In this document: positions 42,717-64,000 of the stretch, one piece after another
Layout of the letters: each line of letters starts with the position of its first letter
How positions within the stretch are numbered: position 1 is the first letter of the stretch
Assembly (NCBI RefSeq): GCF_022832375.1
Contig: NZ_JALHLG010000003.1
Coordinates: 310,001-374,000 of the forward strand
Direction of reading: 5' to 3'
Length of the DNA: 64,000 nt
Source: Novosphingobium beihaiense
Lineage (GTDB): Bacteria > Pseudomonadota > Alphaproteobacteria > Sphingomonadales > Sphingomonadaceae
Position numbers and translations under genes: made by a program
The notes under the pieces: model-generated
What the model saw: the letters and a program-made list of their open reading frames with translations, nothing else
Database searches by the model: none
What the model was told of the DNA's origin: nothing

Positions 42717-44252
42717 TTAGCGCTGCAGAGCCCAGCCGTAGAACCTGTCCAGATCGGCTTTCATCTTCGCCAAAGCCGTGTCATCGACATAAGTCATGTG
42801 GCCGGAGCGATAGTGGGAAAAGCGCACATTTCTGCGCAAGTTCGGCGTCAGATAGAGCTGCGAGATGTCGTATTCCGCGCCGGCATAAGGCGTCGCCAGA
42901 TCGTAGACACCGCCCATGATCAGCACCTTGAGGTGGGGATTGCGCTGCAAGGCTCCAGCAAGGTCCAGGCCGGTGTTGGCAAAAGGCAGGGGCTGATCGA
43001 TGCCCGGCGCCTTGTGCCGGTTGTCCCACTGGGGCTCGATCACCGCGTTGTAGAGCGGGCGGTAATGCCGTTCGCTGATATAACCGATGTCCCGCACCAG
43101 ATGCTGGCGGAACAGCGAAAGATGCGCGCTCGTGACGCCTGCGGTCGCGGCATCGTTGGTCGCCGGATCGAACGTGCCATCACCGGAGGCATAGGATGCG
43201 GGCGCGGTAAAGCGCGTATCGAAACGCCCGATCACGATCCCTTTGCCGGCCAGCAGTTCGTTGCGGTACTGTTCCATGCCTACGCGCAGCTTGTTCTTCT
43301 TCAGGAAGTCCACGGAAAGCCCGGTGAACCCGCTGAGCTGGCGCGCAACGCTGTCTTCCTCATCCGGGGAAAGCCTGTCCCCCTTCAGCAGCGCGGAGGC
43401 GTAAGGGCCGAAAGCGAAGTCCCGCGCCTGTTCCAGATAGGTGTCCAGATCGGCGGGATGACTGGCCGAGCGCTGGTGATACCACGCCGTAGCCGCCAGC
43501 GTGGGCACGAGATTGATCGCATCGATATCGCTGCCCTGAAAGCCCGTGCCGAAGTTCAGCAAAGTGGAGAGCAGGACGACGCCGTTGAAATCCAGCCCCT
43601 GGTTCTGGAGCTTGTAGACCAGCCCCGCCGAACGCGTCGTCCCATAGGATTCGCCGAGCAGGAAACGGGGGGAGTTCCAGCGGTCGAACTTCGCGATGTA
43701 GCGGGTGATGCCGCGCGCGAAGGCATCGATATCCTGATCGACGCCCCAATAGGCATTGACCGGCGTATCGCCAATCGTGCGCGAATAGCCCGTCCCGATG
43801 GCATCGAGGAACACCAGATCCGAATGGCCGAGCAGCGTGAAGAGGTTCTCCTGCTCGCGGTAAGGCGCGGGTGGCGTGGCGCGGGGCGTCTGCGTCGGCG
43901 CGCGCACCGGGCCGAACCCGCCGACGTTGAGCCAGAGGCTCGCCGAGCCCGGCCCGCCGTTGGTCAGGAAAGTCACCGGCCGGTTCTTTGCCGCAGCCCC
44001 TTCGCGGGTATAGGCGACATAGAACATGCTCGCCCTGGGCTGGCCCGCATCGTCGCGGATGATCAGCGTGCCCGCCCTGGCGCGGTAGCTGATGGTCTGT
44101 CCGTCCACCGTGATGCGGTGCACCTTGCCGGTTTCGGTTTCGACCGCTTCGGCCTTCCCGGCAGGCGCCGTTTCCGCCGCCTGCGCGGCGGGAAGTGCCA
44201 CCAGCGAAGCCACCGCCAACAGGGCCAGCGCGCCCCTTTTCCATTCCACCAT
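42717..44252 (-). CDS. exported serine carboxypeptidase (S10 family)
   Basis: The 511-residue protein has a signal peptide (residues 1-26, ending AAQA). S10 motifs are NGGPGSASLW (oxyanion/glutamate region), LGESYGT with Ser202 as nucleophile, VYDLATPYAGAE with the catalytic aspartate and YRSGHMTY with the histidine. It removes C-terminal residues from peptides in the periplasm, and family members tolerate proline nearby. ATG 44252 has AAGGGGG 8 bases upstream. It follows the hydroxyproline oxidase gene by 22 bases, so both are probably controlled by the operator at 45522. Confidence 0.9.
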   Translation of the reverse strand: MVEWKRGALALLAVASLVALPAAQAAETAPAGKAEAVETETGKVHRITVDGQTISYRARAGTLIIRDDAGQPRASMFYVAYTREGAAAKNRPVTFLTNGGPGSASLWLNVGGFGPVRAPTQTPRATPPAPYREQENLFTLLGHSDLVFLDAIGTGYSRTIGDTPVNAYWGVDQDIDAFARGITRYIAKFDRWNSPRFLLGESYGTTRSAGLVYKLQNQGLDFNGVVLLSTLLNFGTGFQGSDIDAINLVPTLAATAWYHQRSASHPADLDTYLEQARDFAFGPYASALLKGDRLSPDEEDSVARQLSGFTGLSVDFLKKNKLRVGMEQYRNELLAGKGIVIGRFDTRFTAPASYASGDGTFDPATNDAATAGVTSAHLSLFRQHLVRDIGYISERHYRPLYNAVIEPQWDNRHKAPGIDQPLPFANTGLDLAGALQRNPHLKVLIMGGVYDLATPYAGAEYDISQLYLTPNLRRNVRFSHYRSGHMTYVDDTALAKMKADLDRFYGWALQR

Positions 44253-44274
44253 CTGCAAGCCCCCTTGCTGCACC

Positions 44275-45495
44275 TTATGCGAAGCGCTCCACATCAAACG
44301 GCGCGACCGGCATCGCCGGTTCTTCCCCCGTCACCAGCGCCCGGATCAGCCCGCCCGTCACCGGCGCCAGCGTCAGGCCGAGGTGCTGGTGGCCGAACGC
44401 GTAGAAGAGATTGCCCAGCCGCTGCGAACGGCCGATGGCGGGGAGATAGTCCGGCAGCGTCGGGCGGCAGCCCATCCAGCGCCGGAACGGTCCTTTCACC
44501 GGCAATCCCAGCTCCGCCACGTGACGCTCCAGCCGTTCCCACTTGCGCGGATCGGGCGGGGCATCGGCATGGCTGAATTCCACGAAGCTCGCAGCCTGCA
44601 CGCAATCGCGGAAGCGGGTGACGATCGTCGCACGTTCCTCGAAGGCCACCGGCGGCAGGTCTTCCGGCCAGAGCGGCGCCTCGGCGCGGATATGGTATCC
44701 GCGCTCGGCAACGATCGGCACCTTGTGGCCCAGCCCGGCCATGATCCCCCCGGACCGCACGCCCGCGCAGACGACGACCGCATCGGCCTCCACGCCTTCG
44801 ACCTGTGCTTTCCCGCCCGTGCCGCGAACCACGGCCTCACCAGCCACGATCTCACCGCCGCGCGCCTCGACGGCGGTGCGCAGGGCCAGACGCAGCGCCC
44901 CGAGATCGGCGATCTGGCCGCTGCCGGCAAACCGGGCCGCGCCGCCCACCGGCCGGCCGCACAGCCTGCCGAGCACCTCCAGATCGCCCGCCGTGGCCGG
45001 GCTCACCTCAACGCTTCCGGTATCGCCGGCGATCCATGCCGCCGTGCCCTTGCGGGCCGCCTGCCCGTCCATCCACGCGACCAGATGCCCGTCCTGGCGC
45101 ACCAGATCCTCGGCTTCCACCCGCGCCGCCAGATCGAGCCATGCCGGCATCGCCGCGCCCAGCAGCGCGCGCAGGGCATCGGCGCCCTTGCGGAACCGCG
45201 CCGGGCGCGACGCGGCGATCAGGCGCAGGCTGAAAGGCAGCCAGGCCGAAATACCCGACGGCGGCAGCGCCAGCGCGCCCCCGCGCAGGAACAGACGTTG
45301 CGGAAAACTGCGGAGAGTCTTCACCGAAGCCAGCGGTTCGACTTGCTCGGCCGCGATATGACCGGCATTACCCCACGACGCCGCGAGCCCGTCGGGATCG
45401 TTGTCGATCAGCGTCACGCCATGCCCGGCGTCGAGCAGTTCCAGCGCGCAGCACAATCCGGTCACGCCGCCTCCGGCGACTGCTACACGCTTCAT
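44275..45495 (-). CDS. lhpB: FAD-dependent D-amino-acid oxidase/dehydrogenase, probable cis-4-hydroxy-D-proline oxidase
   Basis: The 406-residue DadA-like flavoprotein starts with the dinucleotide-binding VAVAGGGVTGLCCALELLDAGHGVTLID. GWMGCRPTLPDYLPAIG-type and GHQHLGLTLAPVTGG motifs near the C terminus match the D-amino-acid dehydrogenase branch. The neighbourhood holds the hydroxyproline epimerase and deaminase, so the likely step is cis-4-hydroxy-D-proline to pyrroline-4-hydroxy-2-carboxylate. ATG 45495 has GGAG 6 bases upstream; a TTG one codon earlier is less likely. A perfect GntR-type palindrome lies 27 bases upstream of the start. Confidence 0.85.
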   Translation of the reverse strand: MKRVAVAGGGVTGLCCALELLDAGHGVTLIDNDPDGLAASWGNAGHIAAEQVEPLASVKTLRSFPQRLFLRGGALALPPSGISAWLPFSLRLIAASRPARFRKGADALRALLGAAMPAWLDLAARVEAEDLVRQDGHLVAWMDGQAARKGTAAWIAGDTGSVEVSPATAGDLEVLGRLCGRPVGGAARFAGSGQIADLGALRLALRTAVEARGGEIVAGEAVVRGTGGKAQVEGVEADAVVVCAGVRSGGIMAGLGHKVPIVAERGYHIRAEAPLWPEDLPPVAFEERATIVTRFRDCVQAASFVEFSHADAPPDPRKWERLERHVAELGLPVKGPFRRWMGCRPTLPDYLPAIGRSQRLGNLFYAFGHQHLGLTLAPVTGGLIRALVTGEEPAMPVAPFDVERFA

Positions 45496-45521
45496 CAAAA
45501 ACTCCGTTGCATCCGTTCGAT

Positions 45522-45535
45522 TATCGTATACGATA
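45522..45535. promoter_or_regulatory. GntR/FCD-type operator, perfect palindrome
   Basis: TATCGTATACGATA is a 14-base perfect palindrome and contains TNGTNNACNA, the core recognised by FadR/FCD-subfamily GntR regulators. An extra half-site (TATACGAT, 45536-45543) follows at once. It lies upstream of the oxidase/S10 operon and 250 bases upstream of the GntR gene on the opposite strand. Confidence 0.8.
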
Positions 45536-45786: not shown

Positions 45787-46443
45787 GTGACAATCGTCGT
45801 TCGCACTCTTGCGGAGCGCATTTTCGAAATCATCCGAGAAAGGATCATCGAGGGCAAGCTTCCGGTCATGGAACCGGTCCGGCAGGATGCGCTCGCGGCG
45901 GAGCTGGGCGTGAGCAAGATCCCGCTGCGCGAAGCCCTCGCCCGTCTGGAACACGAAGGCCTGCTGTCCAGCCAGGCCAATCGCGGCTGGTTCGTCCGCC
46001 CCCTCTCGGCCGATCAGGCCGAGGAGATCTATCACTTGCGCCTCGCCATCGAACCGGACGCGGCCGCCTTCGGTTGCCTCCACGCCAGCGAGGATGACCA
46101 GAAAGCCGCGGAGGAAGCCCTCGAACGGCTCGATCTGGCCGCCGAAAGCAACCTCAGCGATGTCGCCCTGCGCAACCGCGAATTCCACGTCGCTCTGGTG
46201 CGCCCCGGCGGCCGCCTGCTGACGACGCAGCTTGTCGAGCGGCTGGAAGTGCTCGCCGAACGCTACGTCATCGCCCATCTGGAGCCTGCCGGGCGCGGCA
46301 ACCGCGCCCATACCGAACACCGCGAGATTCTCGACGCCTGGCTCGCCCGGGACGAGGCGAAGCTGCAGACCCTGCTCGCCAAGCACATCGCCAATACGCT
46401 CGAAGATCTTCGCGCCCATTTCGCCGCCAGCCTGACCGGCTGA
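45787..46443 (+). CDS. GntR-family regulator with FCD ligand domain
   Basis: The 218-residue protein has an N-terminal winged helix (TLAERIFEIIRERIIEGKL ... LAAELGVSKIPLREALARLEHEGLL) and a helical FCD domain from about residue 80, with candidate metal or ligand histidines in NREFHVAL, HTEHREIL and KHIANTL. FCD regulators bind organic acids or amino-acid-derived ligands. Its place between the hydroxyproline oxidase and the permease makes it the probable regulator of the palindromes at 45522, 51979, 55353, 62360 and 62526. GTG start with GGAG 9 bases upstream. Confidence 0.92.
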   Translation: MTIVVRTLAERIFEIIRERIIEGKLPVMEPVRQDALAAELGVSKIPLREALARLEHEGLLSSQANRGWFVRPLSADQAEEIYHLRLAIEPDAAAFGCLHASEDDQKAAEEALERLDLAAESNLSDVALRNREFHVALVRPGGRLLTTQLVERLEVLAERYVIAHLEPAGRGNRAHTEHREILDAWLARDEAKLQTLLAKHIANTLEDLRAHFAASLTG

Positions 46444-46468: not shown

Positions 46469-47887
46469 ATGCTCGGACCGCGCAAATCGATAGAAAAACT
46501 GGCCCAACGCGAATCCGGGCATTCCCTTGCCAAGACCCTGAGCTGGCCCCACCTGATCGCCCTTGGCGTGGGCGCCATCGTCGGCACCGGCATCTATACG
46601 CTGACCGGCGTCGGCGCCGAGCGCGCGGGGCCTGCCGTCATTCTGGCCTTCGCCATTGCCGGGGCCGTGTGCGCCTGCGCCGCGCTGGCCTATGCGGAAA
46701 TGGCGACGCTGATCCCGGCAGCGGGCAGCGCCTATACGTTCAGCTATGCGGCCATGGGCGAGACGATCGCTTGGGTCGTCGGCTGGAGCCTGATCCTCGA
46801 ATACTCGCTCGCCTGCTCCACCGTTGCGGTGGGCTGGTCGGGCTATCTCGTCGGCTGGATCGAGTCTGCGGGCGTGCACTTGCCCGCGATGTTGCTGGTG
46901 GGGCCCCATGGCGGCGGTATCGTCAACCTGCCCGCTGTGCTCGTGGCGCTGGCGGTGATGGGCCTGCTGATCGCGGGCACGCGTGAAAGCGCGACGCTCA
47001 ACATCATTCTCGTCATCATCAAGCTGGTGGCGCTGTCGATCTTCGTCGCCATGGCGCTGCCCGCCTTCCAGTCCGGCAATCTCGAACCGTTCATGCCCTA
47101 TGGCTTCGCCAGCACCGAAATCGGCGGTGAGAAGCGCGGCGTGATGGCGGCAGCAGCCATCGTCTTCTTCGCCTTCTACGGCTTCGATGCCGTCGCCACT
47201 TCGGCCGAGGAAGCGAAGAATCCGGGCCGCGACCTTACCATCGGCATTGTCGGCTCGATGGTCGTCTGCACGGTCATCTACATGGCCGTGGCGATCACCG
47301 CCGTCGGCGCCCTGCCGTTCCTCCAGCTTGCCAATTCGCCCGAGCCGCTCGCGCTCGTGCTGCGCGAACTGCACCAGCCGCTGGCCGCGCACCTGATTGC
47401 GCTCGCCGCCATCATCGCGCTGCCTTCGGTCATTCTGGTGATGATGTACGGGCAGAGCCGCGTGTTCTTCGTCATGGCGCGCGACGGGCTGCTGCCGCGC
47501 AGCCTCGCCAGGATCAGCCCGCGCACTGGCGCGCCCACCCGCATCACGCTGATGACCGGCGCCTCCATCGCGGTGGTCGCCGGCATCTTCCGGCTCGACG
47601 AGATCGCCGAACTGGCCAATGCCGGCACGCTGATCGCCTTCATCTCGGTGGGCGCCTGCCTGATGATCCTGCGCCGCCGCTCGCCCGACCTGCCGCGCCT
47701 GTTCCGTTGCCCCAAGCCCTATGTGGTCGGTACGCTGACGATCCTGGGCTGCGCCTACCTGCTGTTCAGCCTGCCCGAGACCACGCTGATCCGCTTCGGT
47801 GCCTGGAACGTCATCGGCCTGCTGATCTACAGCCTCTACGGCCGCAGCCGCAGCGACGAGGCGCAGGCGATCGCCCGCACGGTCTGA
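46469..47887 (+). CDS. APC-superfamily amino-acid permease (cationic amino-acid transporter-like)
   Basis: The 472-residue protein has about 12 membrane helices and the APC substrate motif GVGAIVGTGIYTLTGVGAERAGPA in helix 1. FFAFYGFDAVATSAEEAKNPGRDL in helix 6 is typical of the CAT/YfnA group. Given its neighbours, I infer import of hydroxyproline or short hydroxyproline-containing products; the sequence does not fix the substrate. It lies 25 bases after gntR and 44 bases before the GH27 gene. Confidence 0.88.
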   Translation: MLGPRKSIEKLAQRESGHSLAKTLSWPHLIALGVGAIVGTGIYTLTGVGAERAGPAVILAFAIAGAVCACAALAYAEMATLIPAAGSAYTFSYAAMGETIAWVVGWSLILEYSLACSTVAVGWSGYLVGWIESAGVHLPAMLLVGPHGGGIVNLPAVLVALAVMGLLIAGTRESATLNIILVIIKLVALSIFVAMALPAFQSGNLEPFMPYGFASTEIGGEKRGVMAAAAIVFFAFYGFDAVATSAEEAKNPGRDLTIGIVGSMVVCTVIYMAVAITAVGALPFLQLANSPEPLALVLRELHQPLAAHLIALAAIIALPSVILVMMYGQSRVFFVMARDGLLPRSLARISPRTGAPTRITLMTGASIAVVAGIFRLDEIAELANAGTLIAFISVGACLMILRRRSPDLPRLFRCPKPYVVGTLTILGCAYLLFSLPETTLIRFGAWNVIGLLIYSLYGRSRSDEAQAIARTV

Positions 47888-47931: not shown

Positions 47932-49449
47932 ATGTCGCGCGCTCTCATTCGTGCCGCCGCGCTGCTGGGCACGGCCCTTTCGCTCGCCGCAGCCCCGGCA
48001 TCCGCCCATACCGCTTTCGACGGCGTCTGGCTGTTCGACGATACGCCGCCCACCCCGGGTATCACCATGATGGAGGTCTCCTCCCAGGGTGAGCGGATCG
48101 AGGGGCAGGTCACCAGCCAGTGGTACGGCCCGATGACAATGATCGATCCGCATGTCGAGAACGGCCGCCTGGTCTTCGACATGCGCAACATCAACGACCG
48201 CGATCACCCGACCCGGCGCTGGAGCGTCAGCCTCGAAAGCGGCAAGGCCCATCTGCAAGGGCAGGTCTGGTACACCGAGATCGACAGCATGGGCTATCGC
48301 GGCACCGCGAAGGACGCTGCGAAGCGCGCCTTCGCCGTGGCTCCGCTGCCGGAAATGGGCGCGCCCATCCCGGGCAAGCTGGCCGCCACGCCGCCGATGG
48401 GCTGGAGCAGCTGGAACAAGTTCGCCGAGGACATCGACGATGCCACCGTGCGCGCCATGGCCGATGCCATGGCCGCCTCCGGCCTGCGCGATGCCGGGTA
48501 CACCTACATCAACATCGACGACGGCTGGCAGGGCAAGCGCGACGCCAGTGGCATGCTCCACCCCAATGCCAAGTTCCCCGACATGAAGGCGCTGACCGAT
48601 TACGTCCATTCCAAGGGGCTGAAGATCGGCATCTACTCCTCGCAGGGCCCCCGCACTTGCGCGGGCTATGAAGGCAGCTACGGCCACGTCCAACAGGATG
48701 CGCAGACGTTCGCGGACTGGGGCTTCGACTATCTCAAGTACGATCTGTGCTCGGGTGAATGGTTCTATGCCGACGCCGATACGGTAAAGCGCAGCTATTA
48801 TGAAATGGGCGCCGCGCTGCGGGCCACCGGGCGCGATATCCTCTATTCGCTGTGCGAATACGGGCGCTTCGAAGTGGGGAGCTGGGGCCGCTACGTGGGC
48901 GGCGAACTGTGGCGCACCACCGGCGATATTACCGACGATTACAAGACGATGGCCCAGATCGGCTTCGATCACAACGGCAACCCGGCCCACACCGGCCCGC
49001 ACGGCTGGAACGATCCGGACATGCTCGAAGTCGGCAACGGCGGCATGAGCACCGAGGAATACCGCACGCACATGACGCTGTGGGCGATGTCCGCCGCGCC
49101 GCTGATGATGGGGCACGACTTGCGCGAGACCACGCCGGAAACGCTGGCGCTGCTCACCAACCCGCGCGTCATCGCCGTCGATCAGGACGTGCGCGGCATC
49201 CAGGGCACCGCCATGCGCAAGCAGGGCACGATGGAAGTCTGGGCCAAGCCGCTGGTGGACGGCCGCGTCGTCCTCGCCCTGTTCAACCGGGGCGAGGAAG
49301 CCGCCGAAATGGCCCTCACCCCTGCCGACGCGGGTCTGGCGACGGTCTCCGGCGTGGAAGACCTCTGGAGCGGCCAGCAGGCTGACGCCCTGCCCGCCTC
49401 CTACACCGTGCCCGCGCACGGCACGGTCATGATCGCCGTGCACGGCTGA
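47932..49449 (+). CDS. GH27 alpha-galactosidase-type glycosidase with N-terminal beta domain, exported
   Basis: The 505-residue protein has a signal peptide (residues 1-25). Residues about 28-148 form a separate beta-rich domain (DGVWLFDDTPPTPG ...). The GH27 barrel begins at PPMGWSSWNKF. By alignment with known GH27 enzymes Asp271 (LKYDLC) is the nucleophile and Asp332 (TTGDITDD) the acid/base; WNDPDMLEVGNGG is also conserved. A C-terminal beta domain closes it. GH27 covers alpha-galactosidases and beta-L-arabinopyranosidases. Alpha-galactose on serine occurs in extensins, which fits the locus. AGGAG precedes the ATG. It is last in the gntR-permease operon. Confidence 0.92.
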   Translation: MSRALIRAAALLGTALSLAAAPASAHTAFDGVWLFDDTPPTPGITMMEVSSQGERIEGQVTSQWYGPMTMIDPHVENGRLVFDMRNINDRDHPTRRWSVSLESGKAHLQGQVWYTEIDSMGYRGTAKDAAKRAFAVAPLPEMGAPIPGKLAATPPMGWSSWNKFAEDIDDATVRAMADAMAASGLRDAGYTYINIDDGWQGKRDASGMLHPNAKFPDMKALTDYVHSKGLKIGIYSSQGPRTCAGYEGSYGHVQQDAQTFADWGFDYLKYDLCSGEWFYADADTVKRSYYEMGAALRATGRDILYSLCEYGRFEVGSWGRYVGGELWRTTGDITDDYKTMAQIGFDHNGNPAHTGPHGWNDPDMLEVGNGGMSTEEYRTHMTLWAMSAAPLMMGHDLRETTPETLALLTNPRVIAVDQDVRGIQGTAMRKQGTMEVWAKPLVDGRVVLALFNRGEEAAEMALTPADAGLATVSGVEDLWSGQQADALPASYTVPAHGTVMIAVHG

Positions 49450-51978: not shown

Positions 51979-51994
51979 ATATCGTATACGATAT
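51979..51994. promoter_or_regulatory. GntR/FCD-type operator before the deaminase-epimerase operon
   Basis: ATATCGTATACGATAT is a 16-base perfect palindrome identical in its 14-base core to the site at 45522. On the minus strand it overlaps a -10-like TAATAT, so a bound regulator would block transcription. It lies 33 bases upstream of the deaminase start. A second, unrelated palindrome TGCAATTGCA lies at 52007-52016. Confidence 0.85.
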
Positions 51995-52034: not shown

Positions 52035-52439
52035 TCAGTTCTTTTTGGGTTCCGTGCCGGACACAGGATCATCCACATGGCCAGCGAAGGGCAGGAAATG
52101 ATCGATGACGCAGCTTGGGCCCGGCACCTTCGTGGGGGGCATGTACACTCTCACCGTGTCGCCCCCGCAGTAGCGCGACTGCCAGGAATCAATGCTAGCC
52201 GAAGCGAACTGATTGAGACGGCGGCAGCTTTCACCCTTGAACACAGCAATGTACGATTTCTTGTAGTCAGGCTGGCCGCGAAAATAGAGGAGCCCGTCAT
52301 CCCGCACAACCGGCGCGGCGACTTGGGCACTCTCGATACACCGTTTTCCTTTGTCCGAAGACAATGGCGCCGAAGGTCTAGGTGCTGCCCCCATAACTGC
52401 AAAGCAAAGAGGAACAAGGATAGAGACTTTACGAAACAT
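52035..52439 (-). CDS. small exported protein with four cysteines, hypothetical
   Basis: The 134-residue protein has a signal peptide (MFRKVSILVPLCFAVMGAA). The mature part has cysteines at about 34, 72, 91 and 110, a spacing that would allow two disulfides, and the pattern YIAVFKGESC ... YCGGDTVRVY ... SCVIDHFLPF. This resembles small sphingomonad periplasmic proteins of the DUF6491 type, though I am not certain. AGGAG precedes ATG 52439. It lies between the TonB receptor and the hydroxyproline operon in a stretch of lower GC content than its surroundings. Confidence 0.75.
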   Translation of the reverse strand: MFRKVSILVPLCFAVMGAAPRPSAPLSSDKGKRCIESAQVAAPVVRDDGLLYFRGQPDYKKSYIAVFKGESCRRLNQFASASIDSWQSRYCGGDTVRVYMPPTKVPGPSCVIDHFLPFAGHVDDPVSGTEPKKN

Positions 52440-52484
52440 AATGCACTTCTCCTGCCTTCAAGCTTTTATTCAAGATCAAGACAA

Positions 52485-55352: not shown

Positions 55353-55366
55353 TATCGTATACGTCC
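55353..55366. promoter_or_regulatory. GntR/FCD-type operator variant before the TonB receptor
   Basis: TATCGTATACGTCC keeps the left half and centre of the operator (CGTATACG) with a degenerate right end. It lies 53 bases upstream of the receptor start, downstream of a TTGACA -35 element on the minus strand, where repression would be effective. Confidence 0.7.
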
Positions 55367-55536: not shown

Positions 55537-57141
55537 TTACTGGCACGCCTTCACCGGAGCGGAACGCTCGCGAATAATGGGAGGGCGTTCACCGGGCGTC
55601 AGTGCCTCCCATTCCTGCACGGCCAGCCCTGCGTAGCCTTTGCCGTCTGTGGAGGCATTCATCACCGCGCGCAGGCAGCGCGTGGTCACGGCCGGGAACG
55701 AGACCGATTCGAACGATCCCGGCGCCGTACCGTAAGCGCTGGCGCCCGCTACCTGCGTCCAGCCCTTGCCCGCGCCGTCCCAGTATTCGAGATGCCACTG
55801 CGCGGGCGGAGCGACGCCCATGCCCGATCCGGCGGGCTGGTCGTTCCAGAACCAGATGCGCGAGCCATCGATCGTTACCGGCTTGTCCCAGCGGTATTCG
55901 ATCCACTGGCGCGGCGGGTTGCGGGGAGACCAGCTTCCCCACATGTCCGGCGGGAGCGGCGCGGCCTTGGTCACGCCGTCGTTGAGCGACTTGATCCAGT
56001 ATTGCACCGGCACCGGATCGTTGGAGGCCGTGGCCCAGGCCGCCCGCGCGATGTTGCGGGTGGGCGCGAGCGGCGGCTGCGGGCGGCGCGTGGGCACGAC
56101 CTTGCGGATCGCGGGCGGGCTGACGCTGTCATCCCACTCCATCCGGTCCAGCGCGACGCTGCGGCGGAAATGGCCGCCGCCTTTGGCATCGGCGGTGTGA
56201 TAAGCGAGATACCATTGCCCGTGAAACTGCACCGCGCCCGAGTGCGAGGTGGTGGAAGACACCGGCCCCAGCGCCACGCCGCGATACGTCCACGGCCCCA
56301 TTGGCGAAGGCGCGGTGCCATAAGCGATGCAGGCGTGATAGACGGCAGGCGTGCAGTCGGACTTCGGCCCCGCGCGGTTGCCCGCATAGAGCATGTAATA
56401 GGTGCCCTTGCGCTTCATGATCCACGGCGCCTCGAAGAAGCCGGTCAGCCCCTCGATCGCCCGTTCCGGCCCCTTGGGCGTGATCATGTCGCGCGCCAGT
56501 TCCATGCCGCGAAGCTGGCCGAAAGTGCCCCAGTAGATGTAGACGCGGCCATCGTCGTCGATCATCACTGTGGGATCGATGTTCTGGATATCGTTGGCCA
56601 CCGGCACCCGCTGCGAGATGATCGGGCCGGCCGGATGGGCATCGCGCCAGGGGCCGAGCGGGCTGTCCGCCACCGCAACACCGATGGCGAAGCGGTCCTT
56701 GGCATCGCTGTCCTTCTCCAGCACCGGGGCATAGAAGTAATAGCGCCCGTCCGGCCCCGGCACGATTTGTCCGGCATAGGCCCGGCCGGTCCCGGCCCAG
56801 GCAAAGACGTTTTCGGGCCGGGCGATGTCCGAATAATGCGTCCACTTGCCCGAAGCGGGATCGGCCGTCTTCAGCAGCTGCCATTCGCCCATGATGAAAT
56901 CGTTGACGTCCGGCGGCGCCTGATCGCGCCCGGCGAGGATCCACAGCGCCCCGTCCGCAACAAATGGCGCGGGATCGGTCGAGTAATATTCGCCGTCCGC
57001 CAGGATCGGATTGCCCGGCACGGTGACGGCGCGCCCGGCGGGCCGCACCGGCTCGTTCCCGTCCCGCGCGATGCAGCCGGTCGTCATCGCCGCCGTGGCG
57101 GCCAGCGCGGCGGCGAGAGCGGCCCTGTACTTATTCCTCAT
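55537..57141 (-). CDS. GH43-type glycosidase lipoprotein with C-terminal discoidin-like domain (putative arabinofuranosidase)
   Basis: The 534-residue protein has a lipoprotein-like signal (MRNKYRAALAAALAATAAMTTGC). The five-bladed GH43 propeller covers about residues 45-350 with the expected acids: Asp in STDPAPF (base), Asp in NIDPTVMID (pKa modulator) and Glu in FFEAPWI (acid). A C-terminal beta-sandwich (about 370-520, IEYRWDKPVTIDGSRIWFWND) looks like an F5/8-type carbohydrate-binding domain. GH43 enzymes include alpha-L-arabinofuranosidases; extensin arabinan side chains can end in an alpha-linked arabinose. ATG 57141 overlaps the peptidase end by 11 bases. Confidence 0.88.
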   Translation of the reverse strand: MRNKYRAALAAALAATAAMTTGCIARDGNEPVRPAGRAVTVPGNPILADGEYYSTDPAPFVADGALWILAGRDQAPPDVNDFIMGEWQLLKTADPASGKWTHYSDIARPENVFAWAGTGRAYAGQIVPGPDGRYYFYAPVLEKDSDAKDRFAIGVAVADSPLGPWRDAHPAGPIISQRVPVANDIQNIDPTVMIDDDGRVYIYWGTFGQLRGMELARDMITPKGPERAIEGLTGFFEAPWIMKRKGTYYMLYAGNRAGPKSDCTPAVYHACIAYGTAPSPMGPWTYRGVALGPVSSTTSHSGAVQFHGQWYLAYHTADAKGGGHFRRSVALDRMEWDDSVSPPAIRKVVPTRRPQPPLAPTRNIARAAWATASNDPVPVQYWIKSLNDGVTKAAPLPPDMWGSWSPRNPPRQWIEYRWDKPVTIDGSRIWFWNDQPAGSGMGVAPPAQWHLEYWDGAGKGWTQVAGASAYGTAPGSFESVSFPAVTTRCLRAVMNASTDGKGYAGLAVQEWEALTPGERPPIIRERSAPVKACQ

Positions 57142-58945
57142 CGGGATAAGGTCCCTTCCCGCCATCGGCAATCAGTTGGTCCACGCGTTCGTCGATCACG
57201 TCGAGCGGCACGCCGCCCAGTTCGAGCACGGCATCGTGGAACGCGCGGATGTTGAACTTCGGCCCCAGCGCCTTTTCCGCCTTCTTGCGCGCATTCAGAA
57301 ACGCCAGTTCGCCCATGTAGTAGGACAGCGCCTGGCCCGGCCAGGAGATGTAGCGGTCCACCTCGGTCTCGATCTCGTGATCGGACAGCGCGGTGTTGTC
57401 GCGCAGATATTGCTGTGCCTGTTCGCGGCTCCAGCCCATGGTGTGAATGCCGGTATCGACCACGAGCCGCGCCGCGCGCCAGGCCTGATAGCTGAGCATG
57501 CCGAAGCGGTCATAGGGCGTTTCGTACATGTCCATGTCCTCGCCCAGCGCCTCGCAATAGAGCGCCCAGCCCTCGCCATAGGCCGACAGGTACGTGTCGC
57601 GGCGGAACGCGGGCAAGTCCTTGTTCTCGGCCGCGAGCGGCATCTGGAAGGCATGGCCCGGCGCGCTTTCATGCAGCGTCAGCGCGATCTGCGAATAGAA
57701 CGGGCGCGAGGGCAGATCGTAGGTATTGACCAGATAGATGCCCGGCCCGCCCCGGCCGCCGGTGTAGAACGGCGCGATCTCGGCCGGCACCGGCTTGATC
57801 GCGAAACGGCTGCGCGGCAGATGCCCGAAGAACTGCGAGGCCTTGCCGTCGAAGGTCTTGGCGATCCAGGCCGCGCGGTAGAGCAGTTCCTTCGGCGTCT
57901 TGGGATAGAACTGCGGATCGGTGCGCAGGAAGTGCAGGAACGCCTTGAGATCGCCCTTGAACTTCACTTCGCGCATCACGTCGTCCATGCGCCCGCGAAT
58001 GCGCGCAATTTCGGACAGGCCGATCTGGTGGATCTCTTCCGGGCTCATATCCCGCGTGACGTATTCGCGGATTTTCGAGCGGTAATAGGCCTTGCCATCG
58101 GGCAGGTCATAAGCGGCCAGCGTCTTGCGCGCCTGCGGCGCATATTCGCCGCGCATGAAGGCCAGCAGCTTCGCATGCGCGGGAACGACGCTGGAGGCGA
58201 TCAGATCGCGGGCGCGCTGGCGCAGCTTTTCCTCCTCCTCAGCCGGGATCGTATCGGGCAGATCACGAAACGGTTCATAGAACGGCGAAGCCTCGGGCGA
58301 CTTCGCCTCCACCACCAGTTCGATGCCCTTGTCCCGCCCGGCGAGCGTGACTTGCGGGGCGGAGAACCCGCGCTTGAGCCCGGCGCGCATATTGGCGATC
58401 TGCTGATCGTAATAGCGCGGAATCTCGCGCAGCATTTCCAGATAGTTCTCGGCCGCTTCCCGATCGGCCAGCGGCGCGCGCGCCCATTCGGCCAGATCGC
58501 CCCAGAAGCTGGTATCCGCGTTGAAAGGCTTTTCGTAATCGCGGAAACGCTGCGCGGCGAGCAGCGCATCGATCTGGCCCTTGTAGACCGCGAAGTTGAT
58601 GCGGTTCGCGCGCGAAAGCTTGTCCTGCGGGATCGCCGCGAGCTGCTGTTCCACCTGCTCCCAGCGCGCCAGCCGCTCGGCCTGCGCCTTGGGGCCGAGA
58701 TCGGGCAGGACCAGCTTGGGATGGCTGGGCCCGTCTTCGCTCGGCCCGCTTTGATCCACTCGCCATGCATATTCGGACGTATAGATCGCCTCGAAAGCCT
58801 GATCGGCCGTCTGTGCGGCAGCGGGGGCGGTCGATTGCGCCGCGGACGGAGCCCTGGCGGATGCCGGAGCGGGAACGGTGGCAGCGGATACGCCCGCGAA
58901 TGCCGCGCCTGCCATCAGCAGCGCCTGACCAACCGTTTTCTTCAT
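57131..58945 (-). CDS. exported DUF885-family metallopeptidase
   Basis: The 604-residue protein has a signal peptide (MKKTVGQALLMAGAAFAGVSAATVPAPASA). The DUF885 zinc signature is LHESAPGHAFQ (HESxPGH), followed by YGEGWALYCE. Family members are periplasmic peptidases with carboxypeptidase-like activity. ATG 58945 has its own ribosome-binding site, AAGGGGAA, about 6 bases upstream. The reading frame upstream is open without a stop into the Ldh_2-type gene (58946-59974), so read-through would give a 947-residue fusion with an internal signal peptide. Independent initiation here is the more sensible reading. Confidence 0.85.
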   Translation of the reverse strand: MKKTVGQALLMAGAAFAGVSAATVPAPASARAPSAAQSTAPAAAQTADQAFEAIYTSEYAWRVDQSGPSEDGPSHPKLVLPDLGPKAQAERLARWEQVEQQLAAIPQDKLSRANRINFAVYKGQIDALLAAQRFRDYEKPFNADTSFWGDLAEWARAPLADREAAENYLEMLREIPRYYDQQIANMRAGLKRGFSAPQVTLAGRDKGIELVVEAKSPEASPFYEPFRDLPDTIPAEEEEKLRQRARDLIASSVVPAHAKLLAFMRGEYAPQARKTLAAYDLPDGKAYYRSKIREYVTRDMSPEEIHQIGLSEIARIRGRMDDVMREVKFKGDLKAFLHFLRTDPQFYPKTPKELLYRAAWIAKTFDGKASQFFGHLPRSRFAIKPVPAEIAPFYTGGRGGPGIYLVNTYDLPSRPFYSQIALTLHESAPGHAFQMPLAAENKDLPAFRRDTYLSAYGEGWALYCEALGEDMDMYETPYDRFGMLSYQAWRAARLVVDTGIHTMGWSREQAQQYLRDNTALSDHEIETEVDRYISWPGQALSYYMGELAFLNARKKAEKALGPKFNIRAFHDAVLELGGVPLDVIDERVDQLIADGGKGPYPDEE

Positions 58946-59974
58946 AGCGTTTCCCCTTTCGAGAATTGCGAGGATATCCTGATGGAGCTTGGCCGGGATG
59001 CGCAGCCCTTCCACGGCAGAGCGCGCCCGGGCGGCCAGCCTGCGCGAACCGGGCAGGCGTGCGCCCTGATCCTCGATCGCCGCAAACATCTCCTCGGCCC
59101 GGCGCAAGTGCTCTTCCACGCCCGCGCCCAGAAAGCCGGCCGGATCGATCGCCAGAATCAACTCGCCACCGATCGGCGAGCCGCCGCGGCCTTCGTCGGC
59201 CGCCATCGATTCCGCGCTGGTCATGTCGCCGATCAGCGGGCCCGCGATCAGTTCGACCATGGCCGCGAGCGCCGAGCCCTTGTGCGCCCCGAACGTGCGC
59301 ATCGCGCCGTCGAGCACGGCTCTGGCATCGCTGGTCGGCTGTCCGTCCGCGTCATAGCCCCAATCGGGCGGGACAGGCTTGCCCGCGCGGCGGTGCAGTT
59401 CGATCTCGCCGCGCGCCACCGCGCTTGTCGCGAAATCGAACACGAAAGGCGCGCGGCCGGGGCGCGGCCAGCCAAAAGCGATGGGATTGGTGCCGAACAC
59501 CGGCCTGGTGCCGCCTTCCGGCGCGACCCAGGCATGGCTGGGCGTGAAGGCGAAAGCCACCAGCCCCTGCTCCGCCAGCGCCTCGACCTCGGGCCAGAGC
59601 GCGGCGAAATGGACCACATTGTTGAGCGCCAGCGCGGCAATGCCGAACCGGCGCGCCTTTTCCACCAGCAGCGGCATGCCCTGTTCAAACGGAAGCTGGG
59701 CGAAACCACCCTTCCCGTCCACCCGCACCAGCGCGGGGGACGGTTCGCTCACTTCGGGCACGGCATCGGGCACCACCACGCCGCGCTCCACCGAATTGGA
59801 AGCGACCAGCAGGCGGTAAAGCCCGTGCGAGGTGCAGCCGTCCCGCTCGCCCGAGACCATCGTGCGGGCCACCGCCGCCGCATGGGCGGGCGCCAATCCC
59901 CAGGCTTCGAGGACCGTGCGCGCCAGTTCGTCCGCTTCGGCGAGCGACAGGCTTACTTCTTCATTCGAACTCAC
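58946..59974 (-). CDS. Ldh_2-family NAD(P)-dependent oxidoreductase, without its own stop codon
   Basis: About 343 residues form a complete malate/L-lactate dehydrogenase-type (Ldh_2) reductase: early ERDGCTSHGLYRL, FGIAALALNNVVHFAALW, FGTNPIAFGWPRPG, GAHKGSALAAMVELIAGPL and a family-like C-terminal end (IPAKLHQDILAIL). This family includes delta-1-pyrroline-2-carboxylate reductases and ureidoglycolate dehydrogenases, so a role with imine intermediates of (hydroxy)proline is plausible but unproven. It starts with GTG overlapping the GH127 stop as GTGA. No stop follows before the DUF885 start; the TGA of the classical ATGA overlap is present but one base out of frame. Confidence 0.8.
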
Positions 59975-62340
59975 TGGCTGTCGTTCGCCTTGGCCGTGAA
60001 CAGGCGCACGCCGAAGACCGGCCCGGCGGAGCTGCGGTCATGCGGCTCGAAGCGCACCTGCACGCTGCTCTTGCCCCTGGTCAGTGCTTCGGGCAGCGGA
60101 TAGTCGACATCGAAGAACTTGCCCGGCCGGTCCGCATTTAGGCGCTGGGTCGCGATCTTCTGGCCGTCCACGAGAATGTCGAACACGCGCGAACGCTCGC
60201 TGCCCCAATAGCTGGTCTGGAGGACAAGCGGGCCCGGCTTCACTTTCATCGCGAATTCGAAGAAGCCGCCCGAACGGGCATCACGCCCGTTGCGGCCGCG
60301 ATAGGCCGCCGGATAGGAAATCTCCGACGTCAAGTTGTGATCGCGTTCGGGCTGCATTTCGCCCAGATGCATGACATCGATCGAGCGGGCGGCGATGTCC
60401 TTCTGGCGGGCCTGCTCGGCGAGGAACGCGGCCTCTTCCTGCTTCCAGCCGGATTCGGTGAAGCGCTTGAAGTAGACGGCATTGCGCCGGTCGTACTGGC
60501 TGTAGAACGGCACGAACATGAGATCGTCCGGACGCATGACTCCGCTGGTCTGGAACCGGGGCCGATCAGACACGATGGCAGAGAAGGCCTTGAGCGGATT
60601 CTCGCCGACCATGGCGGGCTCCACGCCTTCCCACTCCATTTCCACCGGGCCGAGATCGGCGGCCATGACCATCGGGCCATGCATCACCGAAACCACGTCC
60701 TGCGAACCTTGCGCATTTTCCAGACGCAGCTCCAGCGGCATGTCGATCGAGACCACATCGCCCTGCTTCCAGCGGCGTTCGATCACGGCATAGCCATTGA
60801 CCGGGGTGGACGGCACCGGCGCGCCATTGACCCGGATCGCCGCGCGATTGCCGGCCCAGCCCGGAATGCGCAGCGCCAGCGCGAAACGGCCGTGCTTCAC
60901 GGCATCGAGCGTGAGCGCGATGTCCGAGCGGAAAGGATATTCGGTGGCCAGCGTGAGCGCGACGCCCTTGGCCTTCCACTGCGCCCTGGAGGGAATGTAG
61001 AGATTTACGAAGAGCGTGTCGTCGCCTTCCCAGTAGATGGAATCGCCATGCTTGGCATGGCTTTCCATCCCCGAGCCGACGCAGCACCAGAACGCTTCCT
61101 CGCCCGGCTGCGAATAGCCGCGCGCCGTGCCGCTCATCATCGGCGTCATGTAGGTAAAGCCGCCCGTCGCCGGGTTCTGCGCCGACATGACGTGGTTGAG
61201 ATGCGCGCGCTCGTAATAGTCGAACAAGGCGCCGTCCGGCTGCCAGGAGAAGAGCTGCCGGGTCAGCTTGAGCATGTTGTAGGTGTTGCAGTGCTCGCAC
61301 GTCGATTCGGTGATGTGCTCAGCAATCTTGTCCGGCGCGAAGAAATATTCGCGGTCCGCATTGCCGCCGATCACATAGCTGTGGTGTTTGGTCACGCGCT
61401 CCCAGAAGAAGCGCGCCGCGCGGCCCGGCGCGTCCTGCCCGGTCAGCTCGTGAATACGGCCCAGACCGATCAGCTTGGGCACTTGCGTATTGGCGTGGAA
61501 GTTGGCGAGCTTGTCTTCCTGCGCTTCCAGCGGATCGAGCACGCGGTGGTCGTAGATCCGCTCGGCTACCTTGAGCCAGCGCATGTCTCCGGTGCGCGCG
61601 TAGAGTTCGGCGTAGCTTTCGTTGAGGCCGCCATATTCGCAGTGCAGCAGCTCTTCCATCTGCGCATCGTCGAGCGCGGCGAAGACATTCTCGAAATAGG
61701 CGGCAAAGGCCGTCAGCACTTTCAGCGCGCGGTCATTGCCCCAGCCGCCATGGATATCGAGCAGCCCCGCGAAGATCTTGTGCACGGTGTAGAGCGGCGA
61801 CCACGATCCGTTGAGATCGAACCCGCCCGAGCGAATCACGCCCTTGCGCACTTCCTGAAAGACTTCCTCGCCATCGACGATCTTGCCGTCCTTGGTCTTG
61901 CGGCCGAGCGCGCCGATATAGCCATCGCTGCGCTGCGCCTGGCAAAGCGCCAGTTCCTCGACGATATAGTCGGCGCGGCGGCGGCATTCGGCATGGCCGG
62001 TCTGCTGCCAGGCCAGCACCAGCGCGGTCATGTAATGGCCCAGCGAGTGCCCGGCGATCGTGTCCGATTCCCAGCCGCCGTAGATCGGCGCCTTGGGTTC
62101 GAGCCCGGCATACTTGCGGAAATTGTGCAGGAACCGGTCGGGGCTGAGCGAGAGCAGGTAGTCAACATTGACTTCGACTGCCGTCGCATAGTCCGACGGC
62201 GTCAGGCGCACGTCGGTCAGCGGCAACGGCCGGGCCCGGATCGGCAGCTTGGGCGCGACCACCGCGAAAGCCTTGAAAGGAACGGCACAAATGGCCAGTG
62301 CCGCCACGCCCGTCATCCATTCGCGCCGGTTCGCTTTCAT
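59971..62340 (-). CDS. GH127 beta-L-arabinofuranosidase-type glycosidase
   Basis: The 789-residue protein has an N-terminal signal (about residues 1-27). The alpha/alpha barrel holds the GH127 zinc/cysteine site: ESTCEHC (E349, C351 in this numbering) and WCCVGSGMES (C419, C420). In the studied HypBA1 enzyme of Bifidobacterium a zinc-bound cysteine at this place is the nucleophile. A C-terminal module (about 685-785, RSRVFDILVDGQKIA) of DUF6805 type follows. GH127 releases L-arabinose from beta-linked arabinofuranosides on hydroxyproline. ATG 62340 has AGGAG 8 bases upstream; the open frame beyond it crosses the promoter. First gene of a four-gene leftward operon. Confidence 0.93.
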   Translation of the reverse strand: MKANRREWMTGVAALAICAVPFKAFAVVAPKLPIRARPLPLTDVRLTPSDYATAVEVNVDYLLSLSPDRFLHNFRKYAGLEPKAPIYGGWESDTIAGHSLGHYMTALVLAWQQTGHAECRRRADYIVEELALCQAQRSDGYIGALGRKTKDGKIVDGEEVFQEVRKGVIRSGGFDLNGSWSPLYTVHKIFAGLLDIHGGWGNDRALKVLTAFAAYFENVFAALDDAQMEELLHCEYGGLNESYAELYARTGDMRWLKVAERIYDHRVLDPLEAQEDKLANFHANTQVPKLIGLGRIHELTGQDAPGRAARFFWERVTKHHSYVIGGNADREYFFAPDKIAEHITESTCEHCNTYNMLKLTRQLFSWQPDGALFDYYERAHLNHVMSAQNPATGGFTYMTPMMSGTARGYSQPGEEAFWCCVGSGMESHAKHGDSIYWEGDDTLFVNLYIPSRAQWKAKGVALTLATEYPFRSDIALTLDAVKHGRFALALRIPGWAGNRAAIRVNGAPVPSTPVNGYAVIERRWKQGDVVSIDMPLELRLENAQGSQDVVSVMHGPMVMAADLGPVEMEWEGVEPAMVGENPLKAFSAIVSDRPRFQTSGVMRPDDLMFVPFYSQYDRRNAVYFKRFTESGWKQEEAAFLAEQARQKDIAARSIDVMHLGEMQPERDHNLTSEISYPAAYRGRNGRDARSGGFFEFAMKVKPGPLVLQTSYWGSERSRVFDILVDGQKIATQRLNADRPGKFFDVDYPLPEALTRGKSSVQVRFEPHDRSSAGPVFGVRLFTAKANDSQ

Positions 62341-62359
62341 TTCCAAAACTCCTACAGAA

Positions 62360-62371
62360 TATCGTATACGT
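62360..62371. promoter_or_regulatory. GntR/FCD-type operator variant before GH127
   Basis: TATCGTATACGT keeps ten of the twelve central operator bases. On the minus strand it lies downstream of a -35-like TTGACT (complement of 62397-62402) and 19 bases before the GH127 start, so it sits in the promoter/leader where a repressor would act. Confidence 0.75.
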
Positions 62372-62525
62372 TTATGGATAGGAGTCGGGTTCCCAAAGTC
62401 AATCCCCCTTCGAGGATCGGACTTATGCCCCCATTTGCGCAGCACGGCAGCCGCACCCCCTATCGCCACCCGGATGCCCGTCCGATAAGGCCGGAATATC
62501 CGCAAAGGCAATTACTCAGATTATA

Positions 62526-62536: not shown

Positions 62537-62607
62537 TTCCTTGACCCCTTTGCCTGGGGGCGTCAAGAACGGACGGGTCCTGCTGCAGCAATCCAAGGGT
62601 AGTTGTC

Positions 62608-64000
62608 TTGAGCGCCCCTCTGCTTTTCCCGATTTCCACGTTATCCCGCACCGTCAGCCTGCTGGCGTTGGCCTGCACGGTGGTCTGCACGGGGGCCCTG
62701 CCGCCGCAAGCGGCCATGGCGCGCACGCCTTCGCATGCCGCCGCGCCAGCCCCGCAGCCCGGCATGGCGCAGCGCTATGCCACGGCGGACCGGTTCCTTT
62801 ACGACGGCATGTCCGACTTGCTCGACAATGCCGATATCGCCCCGCGCTTCACGGAAAACGGGCTGTTCTACCGCACCGGCAACCGCCACGATCAGCACTA
62901 TCGCTATCTCGACCTCGCTACGCAGAAAGAACGCGAGATCACCTCCACCGCAAAGCTGCTGGCCGCGCTTTCGCAGGCCACCGGCGGCACCGTCTCGCTG
63001 GACGATGCGGCGATCTGGGGCGTCGAATACGATCCCGCGCAGAATGTCGTCACGTTCAGCGCGCTGAAGGCCCGCTGGCGCATGGATGCCTCGGGCAAGG
63101 CCAGCAAGGAGCAACCGGCAAAGGCCGCGCCCGGCCTCCTCTCGCCCGACGGCAAGACGCGGATCGTCGCGCGCGATTACAACCTCATCGCAGTGGACGT
63201 CGCCAGCGGCCGCGAAGTGCCCCTCACCACGGACGGCACGCGCGAGCAGCCCTATGGCCGCTCGATCCCCCAGCTTGCCGACATCCTGCGCGAAGGCACC
63301 GAAGAGCCCGAAATGCCGGTGTCCGCGCAGTGGTCGCCCGACGGGCGCTATCTGCTGAGCTGGCGCCTCGACACGCGTGGGGTGAAGAAGCTCTCGATGA
63401 CGCAGGAGAACCCTCCGGGCAGCTTCTACCCGCGCAGCTTTTCCTACATCTATCCGCTGGCGGGCGCCAACGTGCTGCCGCAGGCGGCGCGCTTCACAGT
63501 CGATGTGAAAGCGGCCCTGCGCACCGGCAAGGCCACGATCGTGCCGATCGAAGTGCCCAGCGAATCGCTGCTCTACCCCGCTCCGCCCGACATGGGCTGG
63601 GTGAACGGCAAGGCGCACATGACCTGGACCGAGCGCGGCTACAAGCAGCAGGTGGTCTACGAAGCCGATCCGGCGACCGGCAAGGCCACCATCGTCGCGC
63701 GCGAGGCGGTGAAGCCCGTCATCACCGTCACCTCCAGCATGATCTTCCCCGCCCCCGAACTGGGCGGCGAGCTTTCGATTTCCGAACGCACCGGCTGGGC
63801 CCAGCTCTACCTCGTCACGCCGGACGCTCCGGACGGCGGCAAGGCACTGACCACGGGCGAGTGGGAAGTGCTCTCGGTCGACCATATCGCCGAGGACAAG
63901 ACCTCGCTCGTGGTTACCGGCGTCGGGCGCGAGGCGGACCGCAATCCCTACTGGCGCGCGCTCTACCGCGTGCCGCTCGCGGGCGGCGCCCTGACCGAGC
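62608..64000 (+). CDS. S9-family dipeptidyl-peptidase IV-like protein, N-terminal part (3' end cut by window)
   Basis: The frame is open to the window end (464 residues visible). No ATG or GTG leads it; TTG 62608 has AAGGG 9 bases upstream and gives a signal peptide (TVSLLALACTVVCTGALPPQAAMA). Residues from about 70 form the DPP-IV beta-propeller (YRYLDLATQKEREI, LLSPDGKTRIVARDYNLIAVDVASG, SAQWSPDGRYLLSWRLDTRG, MGWVNGKAHMTWTERGY, GWAQLYLV). The catalytic alpha/beta-hydrolase domain lies beyond the window. DPP-IV enzymes remove X-Pro dipeptides, which suits proline/hydroxyproline-rich substrates. It is divergent from the GH127 operon with operator-like sites between. Confidence 0.85.
   Translation, partial: MSAPLLFPISTLSRTVSLLALACTVVCTGALPPQAAMARTPSHAAAPAPQPGMAQRYATADRFLYDGMSDLLDNADIAPRFTENGLFYRTGNRHDQHYRYLDLATQKEREITSTAKLLAALSQATGGTVSLDDAAIWGVEYDPAQNVVTFSALKARWRMDASGKASKEQPAKAAPGLLSPDGKTRIVARDYNLIAVDVASGREVPLTTDGTREQPYGRSIPQLADILREGTEEPEMPVSAQWSPDGRYLLSWRLDTRGVKKLSMTQENPPGSFYPRSFSYIYPLAGANVLPQAARFTVDVKAALRTGKATIVPIEVPSESLLYPAPPDMGWVNGKAHMTWTERGYKQQVVYEADPATGKATIVAREAVKPVITVTSSMIFPAPELGGELSISERTGWAQLYLVTPDAPDGGKALTTGEWEVLSVDHIAEDKTSLVVTGVGREADRNPYWRALYRVPLAGGALTE

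Follow-up and report, generated by a model that had tools for sequence, protein, structure and literature searches.

Why do genes for the breakdown of hydroxyproline (Hyp) lie among genes for glycosidases and peptidases in Novosphingobium beihaiense? The question is raised by a locus in a 64,000-nucleotide stretch of this genome (hereafter the window; contig C32, 310001-374000, in a 4.53 Mb genome of 108 contigs), for which an initial annotation had proposed a single pathway for the use of plant hydroxyproline-rich glycoproteins (HRGPs) of the extensin type. Extensins and related HRGPs are cross-linked plant wall proteins. Their microbial degradation is described as little known (PMC4454575); this and the other papers are cited by PMC number, and statements drawn from them refer to excerpts of each.

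We consider it fairly probable that the locus is one HypR-like regulon, probably run by its own GntR/FCD repressor and predicted to strip and eat extensin-type plant HRGPs. The substrate claim is made because of the enzyme families encoded, their co-location with Hyp catabolism and a palindrome shared by several of the gene groups.

A shared palindrome and a recurrent gene pairing

The 14-base motif TATCGTATACGATA occurs as an exact copy twice in the 4.5 Mb genome, both times inside the locus, before the genes for the oxidase and the deaminase of the Hyp pathway; more divergent sites precede the GH146 and TonB receptor genes. The window contains five sites at up to 3 mismatches, compared with 0.39 expected, and none of 100 shuffles reached five. 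One of the five, at 51694 within the deaminase gene (3 mismatches), is taken as a chance occurrence. TonB receptor genes in three related loci (L005, L008 and L020) are also preceded by sites with 2-3 mismatches, 45-47 bp upstream.

Genome-wide, eight places match at up to 2 mismatches, against none for the reversed control. Six of them precede fitting genes, three of these in the locus. Elsewhere, the palindrome is found ahead of a deaminase paralogue that shares 90% identity with the deaminase of the locus and is followed by genes for a further S9 peptidase of the DPP-IV type and a GH2 enzyme; a TonB receptor gene near this group carries it as well (region L097:5982-15727, G000:C76), and the whole group is predicted to be an unlinked part of the same regulon. 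It is also found before a TonB receptor gene in a sugar locus on contig C12, described below. The two misfits lie within a zinc-ribbon/DUF3426 gene (C76:156811) and 66 bp before a reading frame without a Pfam match (C31:9415).

To place the locus among its relatives, we used the nearest HypE (4-hydroxyproline 2-epimerase) loci, at least 80 in number. The 80 loci counted here comprise the 47 nearest (L005-L051, all but L048 alphaproteobacterial by title), 19 from Bacteroidota and 14 others; a relative is a protein with at least 35% identity over at least 30% coverage, and because flanks extend to at most 10 kb, counts of relatives are lower bounds. A GTATAC core precedes the deaminase gene in all 21 relatives displayed, which were chosen from the 80 loci, and the window has the exact palindrome at that place. 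Across the 80 loci, 45 sites at up to 2 mismatches were found in 35 loci, and none with the reversed pattern. Genes within 220 bp downstream, a site between two divergent genes being counted for both, mostly encode DHDPS (27) and DAO (19) proteins, followed by GH146 (5), DUF885 (3), LDH2 (3) and M24 (2); single sites precede genes for a TonB receptor, DUF5695, S9, FCD, APC and HypE, and four have no listed gene. In 28 of the 80 loci a site precedes a Hyp gene, and in 11 another gene of the locus.

We also scanned 12 of the 13 other HypE-containing genomes of the family sample described below (all except G097), together with two that lack HypE. These 14 genomes gave 43 sites, compared with 16 for the reversed control, so that a weak site by itself carries little weight and its position is what counts. 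In eight of the 12, a site is located 0.9-1.0 kb upstream of the HypE gene, i.e. in the deaminase promoter; G112, G043, G052 and G003 have none at this distance. Before GH146, a site lies approximately 20-50 bp from the start, as inferred from the start of the Pfam domain, in three of the five other genomes with GH146 near HypE (G032, G099 and G112). No site was found near the GH127/146 genes of G045 and G091, the two genomes without HypE.

The palindrome likely acts as a common switch for several gene groups of the locus. The FCD protein is predicted to bind it, given the position of the regulator gene in the locus and the twofold symmetric operators of GntR-family regulators (PMC6608401).

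The gene pairing itself recurs. Among 119 genomes of the family, 14 encode HypE above its cut-off, 12 a GH127/146 domain and 5 DUF5695. All five DUF5695 genomes (P 1.1e-5) and 8 of the 12 GH127/146 genomes (P 1.6e-6) have HypE. In six of the eight genomes with both, GH127/146 is found within 12 kb of HypE, where random placement would give 0.09 (P ~3e-11); with the genome of the window excluded, the figure is five of seven (P ~3e-9). The remaining two carry the genes on different contigs. In four of the five genomes with DUF5695, a GH127/146 gene is approximately 3 kb away or less; in G052 the distance is approximately 12 kb. Chance adjacency, which we also considered, is ruled out by the linkage counts and the palindrome.

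Within the flanks, GH146, GH43, GH27 or DUF5695 is encoded in 23 of the 80 loci, of which 18 belong to the 47 nearest and 5 to the 19 from Bacteroidota, with none among the 14 others, and the 47 nearest hold relatives of the DAO oxidase in 35 cases, of the deaminase in 41 and of DUF885 in 27. Gene order varies in Sphingomonas, Caulobacter (L038), Niveispirillum (L027), Parvularcula (L042), Nitrospirillum (L049) and Mucilaginibacter/Pedobacter (L065, L068 and L075), with a SusC/SusD pair replacing the single TonB receptor in L075. The pairing of glycosidases with Hyp enzymes is thus seen again in Bacteroidota and in more than one alphaproteobacterial order. Among the best 120 matches of longer lists, named relatives of DUF5695 and GH146 are mostly from Novosphingobium, followed by Sphingobium and Sphingomonas. 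A GH146 protein 75% identical to that of the window is found in Bradyrhizobium sp. CB1650 (P0147), which belongs to a different order, suggesting horizontal transfer.

Gene inventory and predicted pathway

Pfam and NCBIfam profile scans of the locus proteins confirmed, gene by gene and in place, the Hyp genes, permease, FCD regulator, glycosidases, TonB receptor and peptidases that the initial annotation had named (Table 1). It had overlooked the Ldh_2 gene ahead of DUF885. The locus continues for approximately 5.2 kb past the window, with the final 989 bases of the S9 gene, then DUF5695 and then M24. The short stretches given in Table 1 are presumably family motifs: GESYG for S10, KYD and WNDPD for GH27, HESAPGH for DUF885 and GGSAGG for S9.

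Table 1. Genes and palindromic sites of the locus. Positions are those of the window; positions with the prefix L003 are outside it.
Feature	Position	Strand	Basis or remark
S10-type serine carboxypeptidase, doubtful member	42717..44252	-	PF00450 37 bits; GESYG stretch; signal-like N-terminus
FAD-dependent DAO-type oxidase, likely D-hydroxyproline oxidase	44275..45495	-	PF01266 151 bits
Palindrome TATCGTATACGATA, exact	45522..45535	.	27 bp before oxidase gene
GntR-family regulator with FCD domain	45787..46443	+	PF07729 75 bits, PF00392 59 bits
APC-family amino-acid permease	46469..47887	+	PF13520 187 bits
GH27 alpha-galactosidase, likely exported	47932..49449	+	PF16499 (Melibiase_2) 231 bits; KYD, WNDPD; signal-like N-terminus
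4-Hydroxyproline 2-epimerase (HypE)	50023..51021	-	NF010578 537.8 bits, cut-off 376; MCGH and DRSPCGTG Cys pair
DHDPS-superfamily protein, likely pyrroline-4-hydroxy-2-carboxylate deaminase (HypD/LhpC type)	51032..51946	-	PF00701 194 bits
Palindrome TATCGTATACGATA, exact	51980..51993	.	34 bp before deaminase gene
TonB-dependent receptor	52547..55300	-	PF00593, PF07715
Palindrome-like site, 3 mismatches	55353..55366	.	53 bp before TonB receptor gene
GH43 glycosidase, C-terminal F5/8-type C-like domain, likely exported, likely alpha-L-arabinofuranosidase	55537..57141	-	PF04616 111 bits
DUF885 protein, likely exported metallopeptidase	57131..58945	-	PF05960 about 520 bits; HESAPGH; signal-like N-terminus
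Ldh_2/MLD2-type reductase, likely delta1-pyrroline-2-carboxylate reductase	58946..59974	-	PF02615 323 bits
GH146-like cysteine beta-L-arabinofuranosidase, likely exported	59971..62340	-	PF07944 397 bits; 5opj 479 bits
Palindrome, 2 mismatches	62360..62373	.	20 bp before GH146 gene
S9 DPP-IV-type peptidase, first part	62608..64000	+	PF00930 and PF00326, 128 bits each; GGSAGG
DUF5695 protein	L003:1016-3766	+	1288 bits
M24 Xaa-Pro peptidase	L003:4066-5244	+	194 bits

HypE retains the catalytic Cys pair, and a Tyr six residues ahead of the Asp of DRSPCGTG corresponds to the Cys/Tyr discriminating site of 4-hydroxyproline 2-epimerases (PMC4364671). Assignment as a trans-3-hydroxyproline dehydratase or a proline racemase was rejected on the basis of the Cys-Cys pair and of NCBIfam scores of 256 and 283 bits, below the cut-offs of 540 and 556. 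The role of the MLD2-type reductase is assigned from PMC4113996. The APC permease scores under the cut-off of every NCBIfam model among the matches listed (25 of 31), and the C-terminal F5/8-type C-like match of GH43 is below its cut-off as well (23.7 vs 27.8). The solved structure closest to GH43 is 3qed, labelled beta-xylosidase/alpha-L-arabinfuranosidase gly43N.

The glycosidase labels of the initial annotation held for GH43 and GH27. The third enzyme, which it had called GH127, is nearer GH146: it scores 479 bits against 5opj and 189 against 8k7x, which we take to be BT0349 and Bll3HypBA1 of GH146, compared with 95 against 4qjy and 40 against 3wkw, presumably the Geobacillus GH127 enzyme and HypBA1 of GH127. 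We therefore replaced the label. The EHCNTYN and WCC stretches align with 5opj, and the Zn-binding Glu/Cys residues and the Cys nucleophile are retained.

Ldh_2 and DUF885 (57131-59974, minus strand) form a single uninterrupted frame in the window. A designed two-domain protein is unlikely, since the two are separate frames in all seven relatives checked (L005, L008, L009, L011, L016, L020 and L025) and DUF885 retains its own Met and a signal-like N-terminus; the run-on is either a natural frame change or an assembly slip.

Export was judged by simple hydropathy plus inspection of the N-terminal residues. Hydrophobic, signal-like starts are found in GH146, GH43, GH27, DUF5695, DUF885, S9, S10 and the TonB receptor and are absent from HypE, the deaminase, Ldh_2 and M24. 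The N-terminal hydropathy of the DAO oxidase nearly equals that of GH27, and we read its hydrophobic start as an FAD-binding start. Signal-like N-termini on glycosidases and peptidases and their absence from catabolic enzymes make the partition that a single-pathway model requires.

In the proposed pathway, GH43 would remove alpha-arabinose caps, GH27 alpha-galactose and GH146 the beta-arabinofuranose adjoining Hyp, and DUF5695 would act on a further bond. The bared Pro/Hyp-rich chain would be cleaved by the DPP-IV-type S9 and DUF885 peptidases, and the products imported through the TonB receptor and the permease, with M24 acting on dipeptides to free Hyp. Conversion of Hyp to alpha-ketoglutarate semialdehyde would then be the task of HypE, the DAO oxidase and the DHDPS-type deaminase. 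The extensin-type substrate, the linkages and the export and transport roles in this scheme are all ones that we infer. The HypE locus of Nitrospirillum amazonense has a gene for a POT/PTR2 peptide transporter (L049:12486-14354, minus strand) next to that for M24, an arrangement that fits uptake of Pro/Hyp peptides.

The locus genes scanned include none for an alpha-ketoglutarate-semialdehyde dehydrogenase. The best candidate, at C12:147177-148652, is 61% identical to an aldehyde dehydrogenase encoded beside HypE in L047, the next best reaching 33%. Its neighbours encode two GH43 enzymes, DGOK, a GFO/IDH/MocA oxidoreductase, an MFS transporter, an IlvD/EDD dehydratase and an SMP-30 lactonase, and the locus (L091, L096; G000:C12:120000-157999) also holds an MGH1-like glycosidase and TonB receptors. 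This gene set represents parts of an oxidative sugar pathway. The oxidative L-arabinose route passes through alpha-ketoglutarate semialdehyde. So does the 4-hydroxyproline route (PMC4113996). As both established routes pass through this compound, arabinose and Hyp would share the C12 aldehyde dehydrogenase as their last enzyme, with the C12 locus supplying it and L-arabinose reaching the same intermediate there.

Alternative substrates and the role of DUF5695

The single pathway gains from the shared palindrome, the repeated linkage and the N-terminal partition; extensin rather than arabinogalactan-protein or pectic arabinan is what we infer as its target. A number of observations weigh against the proposed extensin-eating regulon. 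Sites at up to 2 mismatches precede both a Hyp gene and another locus gene in only 6 of the 80 loci, the distance from the regulator gene to the nearest palindrome is 252 bp, and the GH146 promoters of G052 and G057 lack the palindrome at the stringency of the scan. The last Hyp enzyme sits in a separate oxidative-sugar locus, and no palindrome at up to 2 mismatches precedes its likely gene. As for conservation, 57 of the 80 loci lack GH146, GH43, GH27 and DUF5695 altogether within the flanks; among the 47 nearest, relatives were found in at least 2 loci for GH27 (at least 3 of the 19 from Bacteroidota), 7 for GH43 and 3 for the TonB receptor. The S10 carboxypeptidase, which the initial annotation had counted in the pathway, has no relative at 35% identity or more in any of the 80 loci, making its membership doubtful. 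S10 relatives of 28% identity are present in L012, L013 and L021, Sphingomonas HypE loci without glycosidase relatives, and a divergent S10 may belong to some Hyp loci.

Also on that side are three points about the glycosidases. The window's genome lacks GH121, the family that opens Ara3-Hyp in Xanthomonas and Bifidobacterium: only partial matches of 28.5 and 23.8 bits (cut-off 3200) fall in the MGH1-like enzyme on C12, which is weakly similar to the GH121 enzyme HypBA2. Across the wider phylum, 6 of 349 genomes, including that of the window, gave weak partial matches only. This leaves one bond of the proposed polymer without an assigned enzyme, unless DUF5695 or GH146 cuts it. Second, DUF5695 seems to be a remote relative of PL27, a family active on gum arabic caps. 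Third, BT0349, presumably the nearest solved GH146 enzyme (5opj), is from a rhamnogalacturonan I (RG-I) locus and active on arabinan-derived arabinotetraose (PMC10850190).

The relation of DUF5695 to PL27 comes from a profile search, in which PL27 was the sole match, and from a fold search over the families listed there; a PDB search with a single DUF5695 sequence gave no credible match (best E 0.89). The likeness to the PL27 rhamnose-glucuronate lyase BACCELL_00875 (5no8) amounts to 15% identity, and an invariant His of DUF5695 is a Trp in PL27 in that stretch. The one paper listed for DUF5695 concerns fungal velvet regulators. Tentatively, and with considerable doubt, DUF5695 might be a new carbohydrate-active enzyme family that opens the inner Hyp beta-arabinoside chain in place of GH121; it would thereby complete an extensin-eating system built around Hyp catabolism in at least two phyla, in which freed arabinose and Hyp meet at alpha-ketoglutarate semialdehyde.

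An alternative that we judge unlikely is that the target is arabinogalactan-protein glycan: GH146, GH43, GH27 and DUF5695 would strip type II arabinogalactan caps, leaving the Hyp-rich core to the peptidases and Hyp enzymes. Of the families that recur around HypE, none was recognised as a galactanase or glucuronidase, with part of the unlabelled clusters scanned against Pfam and GH43 treated at the family level. Moreover, the product of a lyase would carry an unsaturated glucuronyl end, but GH88/105 has no match in the window's genome and is present in only one of the five DUF5695 genomes. A GH88-type unsaturated glucuronyl hydrolase gene is found near the HypE/DUF5695 locus of Caulobacter sp. 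Root343 (L038:2627-3835, minus strand), which bears on whether DUF5695 is a lyase.

The BT0349 record and the label of the closest solved GH43 structure (beta-xylosidase/alpha-L-arabinfuranosidase) would suit two neighbours that came under one regulator by drift, a Hyp/proline-peptide pathway beside pectic-arabinan hydrolases, with sugars derived from pectin and Hyp from elsewhere. We find this improbable: the palindrome precedes both halves, their pairing recurs across orders of Alphaproteobacteria and in Bacteroidota in other gene orders, and the locus genes scanned include no recognisable pectinase. A general locus for scavenging collagen, gelatin or proline peptides, with unrelated glycosidases, would resemble known HypR regulons that contain collagenases and proline peptidases (PMC5343134, PMC6608401), but is very improbable, as no M9 collagenase was found among the genes scanned here and the palindrome stands before GH146 in four genomes (that of the window, G032, G099 and G112) and several named loci.

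Relation to known systems and flanking genes

HypR regulons for 4-hydroxyproline are described in Sinorhizobium meliloti; in Shewanella and other Proteobacteria (PMC5343134); and in Streptomyces (PMC6608401). There as here, a GntR-family regulator gene is found beside genes for HypE, a DAO-type oxidase and a DHDPS-type deaminase, and one operator-like site is ahead of the hyp genes, in our case the exact palindrome before the oxidase and deaminase genes. Some HypR regulons recruit secreted proteases, proline peptidases, a TonB receptor and a COG531 permease, and recruitment of upstream functions is alike in our locus. However, those regulons add collagenases and proline peptidases, whereas GH146, GH43, GH27 and DUF5695 are added here; hypH, for the semialdehyde dehydrogenase, is a core member there and outside the locus here; and TATCGTATACGATA differs from the Streptomyces motif CTNTGC(A/C)ATGTCAC. 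The locus therefore works like a HypR regulon, without being filed as a typical one.

The deglycosylating half has counterparts elsewhere. In Xanthomonas euvesicatoria, XeHypBA1, a secreted enzyme labelled GH146 in PMC10850190, cuts Ara-Hyp, and a prolyl oligopeptidase gene, broken into a pseudogene, lies beside xehypAA (PMC6085000). The likeness rests on families and lengths, not sequences: XeHypBA1 was cloned to residue 791 and the GH43 enzyme to residue 528, compared with 789 and 534 residues here, and a prolyl oligopeptidase gene is nearby. In contrast to our locus, the XeHypBA1/XeHypBA2/XeHypAA set has GH121, its excerpts describe no link to Hyp catabolism, and X. euvesicatoria cannot use L-arabinose (PMC6085000). 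In Bifidobacterium longum, GH127/146 and GH43 enzymes likewise remove Hyp-linked beta-arabinosides (HypBA1/HypBA2/HypAA and Bll4HypBA1), but beta-Ara2 is imported by an ABC transporter, GH121 is central and no Hyp catabolism is described in the excerpts (PMC7263609, PMC10850190). In-silico extensin degradation in Latescibacteria was similarly read from a GH127-family gene and proteases, as a genome-level inventory in which the excerpts describe no linked locus, operator or Hyp pathway (PMC4454575).

Our locus thus joins two known ideas, HRGP-deglycosylating gene sets and HypR-type Hyp catabolism. The initial annotation knew of no bacterial locus combining them; in agreement with this, we found no report of a linked Hyp-catabolism and HRGP-deglycosylation locus in the open-licence literature searched, and in the excerpts of a neighbourhood study of the HypE superfamily the strings 'glycos' and 'arabin' are absent and 'peptidase' occurs once (PMC4113996). 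If the proposal is true, the locus would be a plant counterpart of collagenase-containing HypR regulons, taking sugar and amino acid under one control. It provides testable enzymes (GH146, GH43, GH27 and DUF5695), and the 14-base motif allows further regulon members to be found in other genomes.

Next to the locus are molybdenum hydroxylase-type genes (2Fe-2S and MoCo-binding) with a cytochrome c gene (38227-42481, minus strand), with no sign that these belong to it. Downstream of M24 are a FecR gene, more TonB receptors and a metal ATPase, which we take as other systems. Finally, a small secreted-looking reading frame is found between the TonB receptor and deaminase genes (about 52050-52440, minus strand); similar C-terminal letters precede the deaminase gene in L005 and L020, and the frame may encode a conserved small exported protein.

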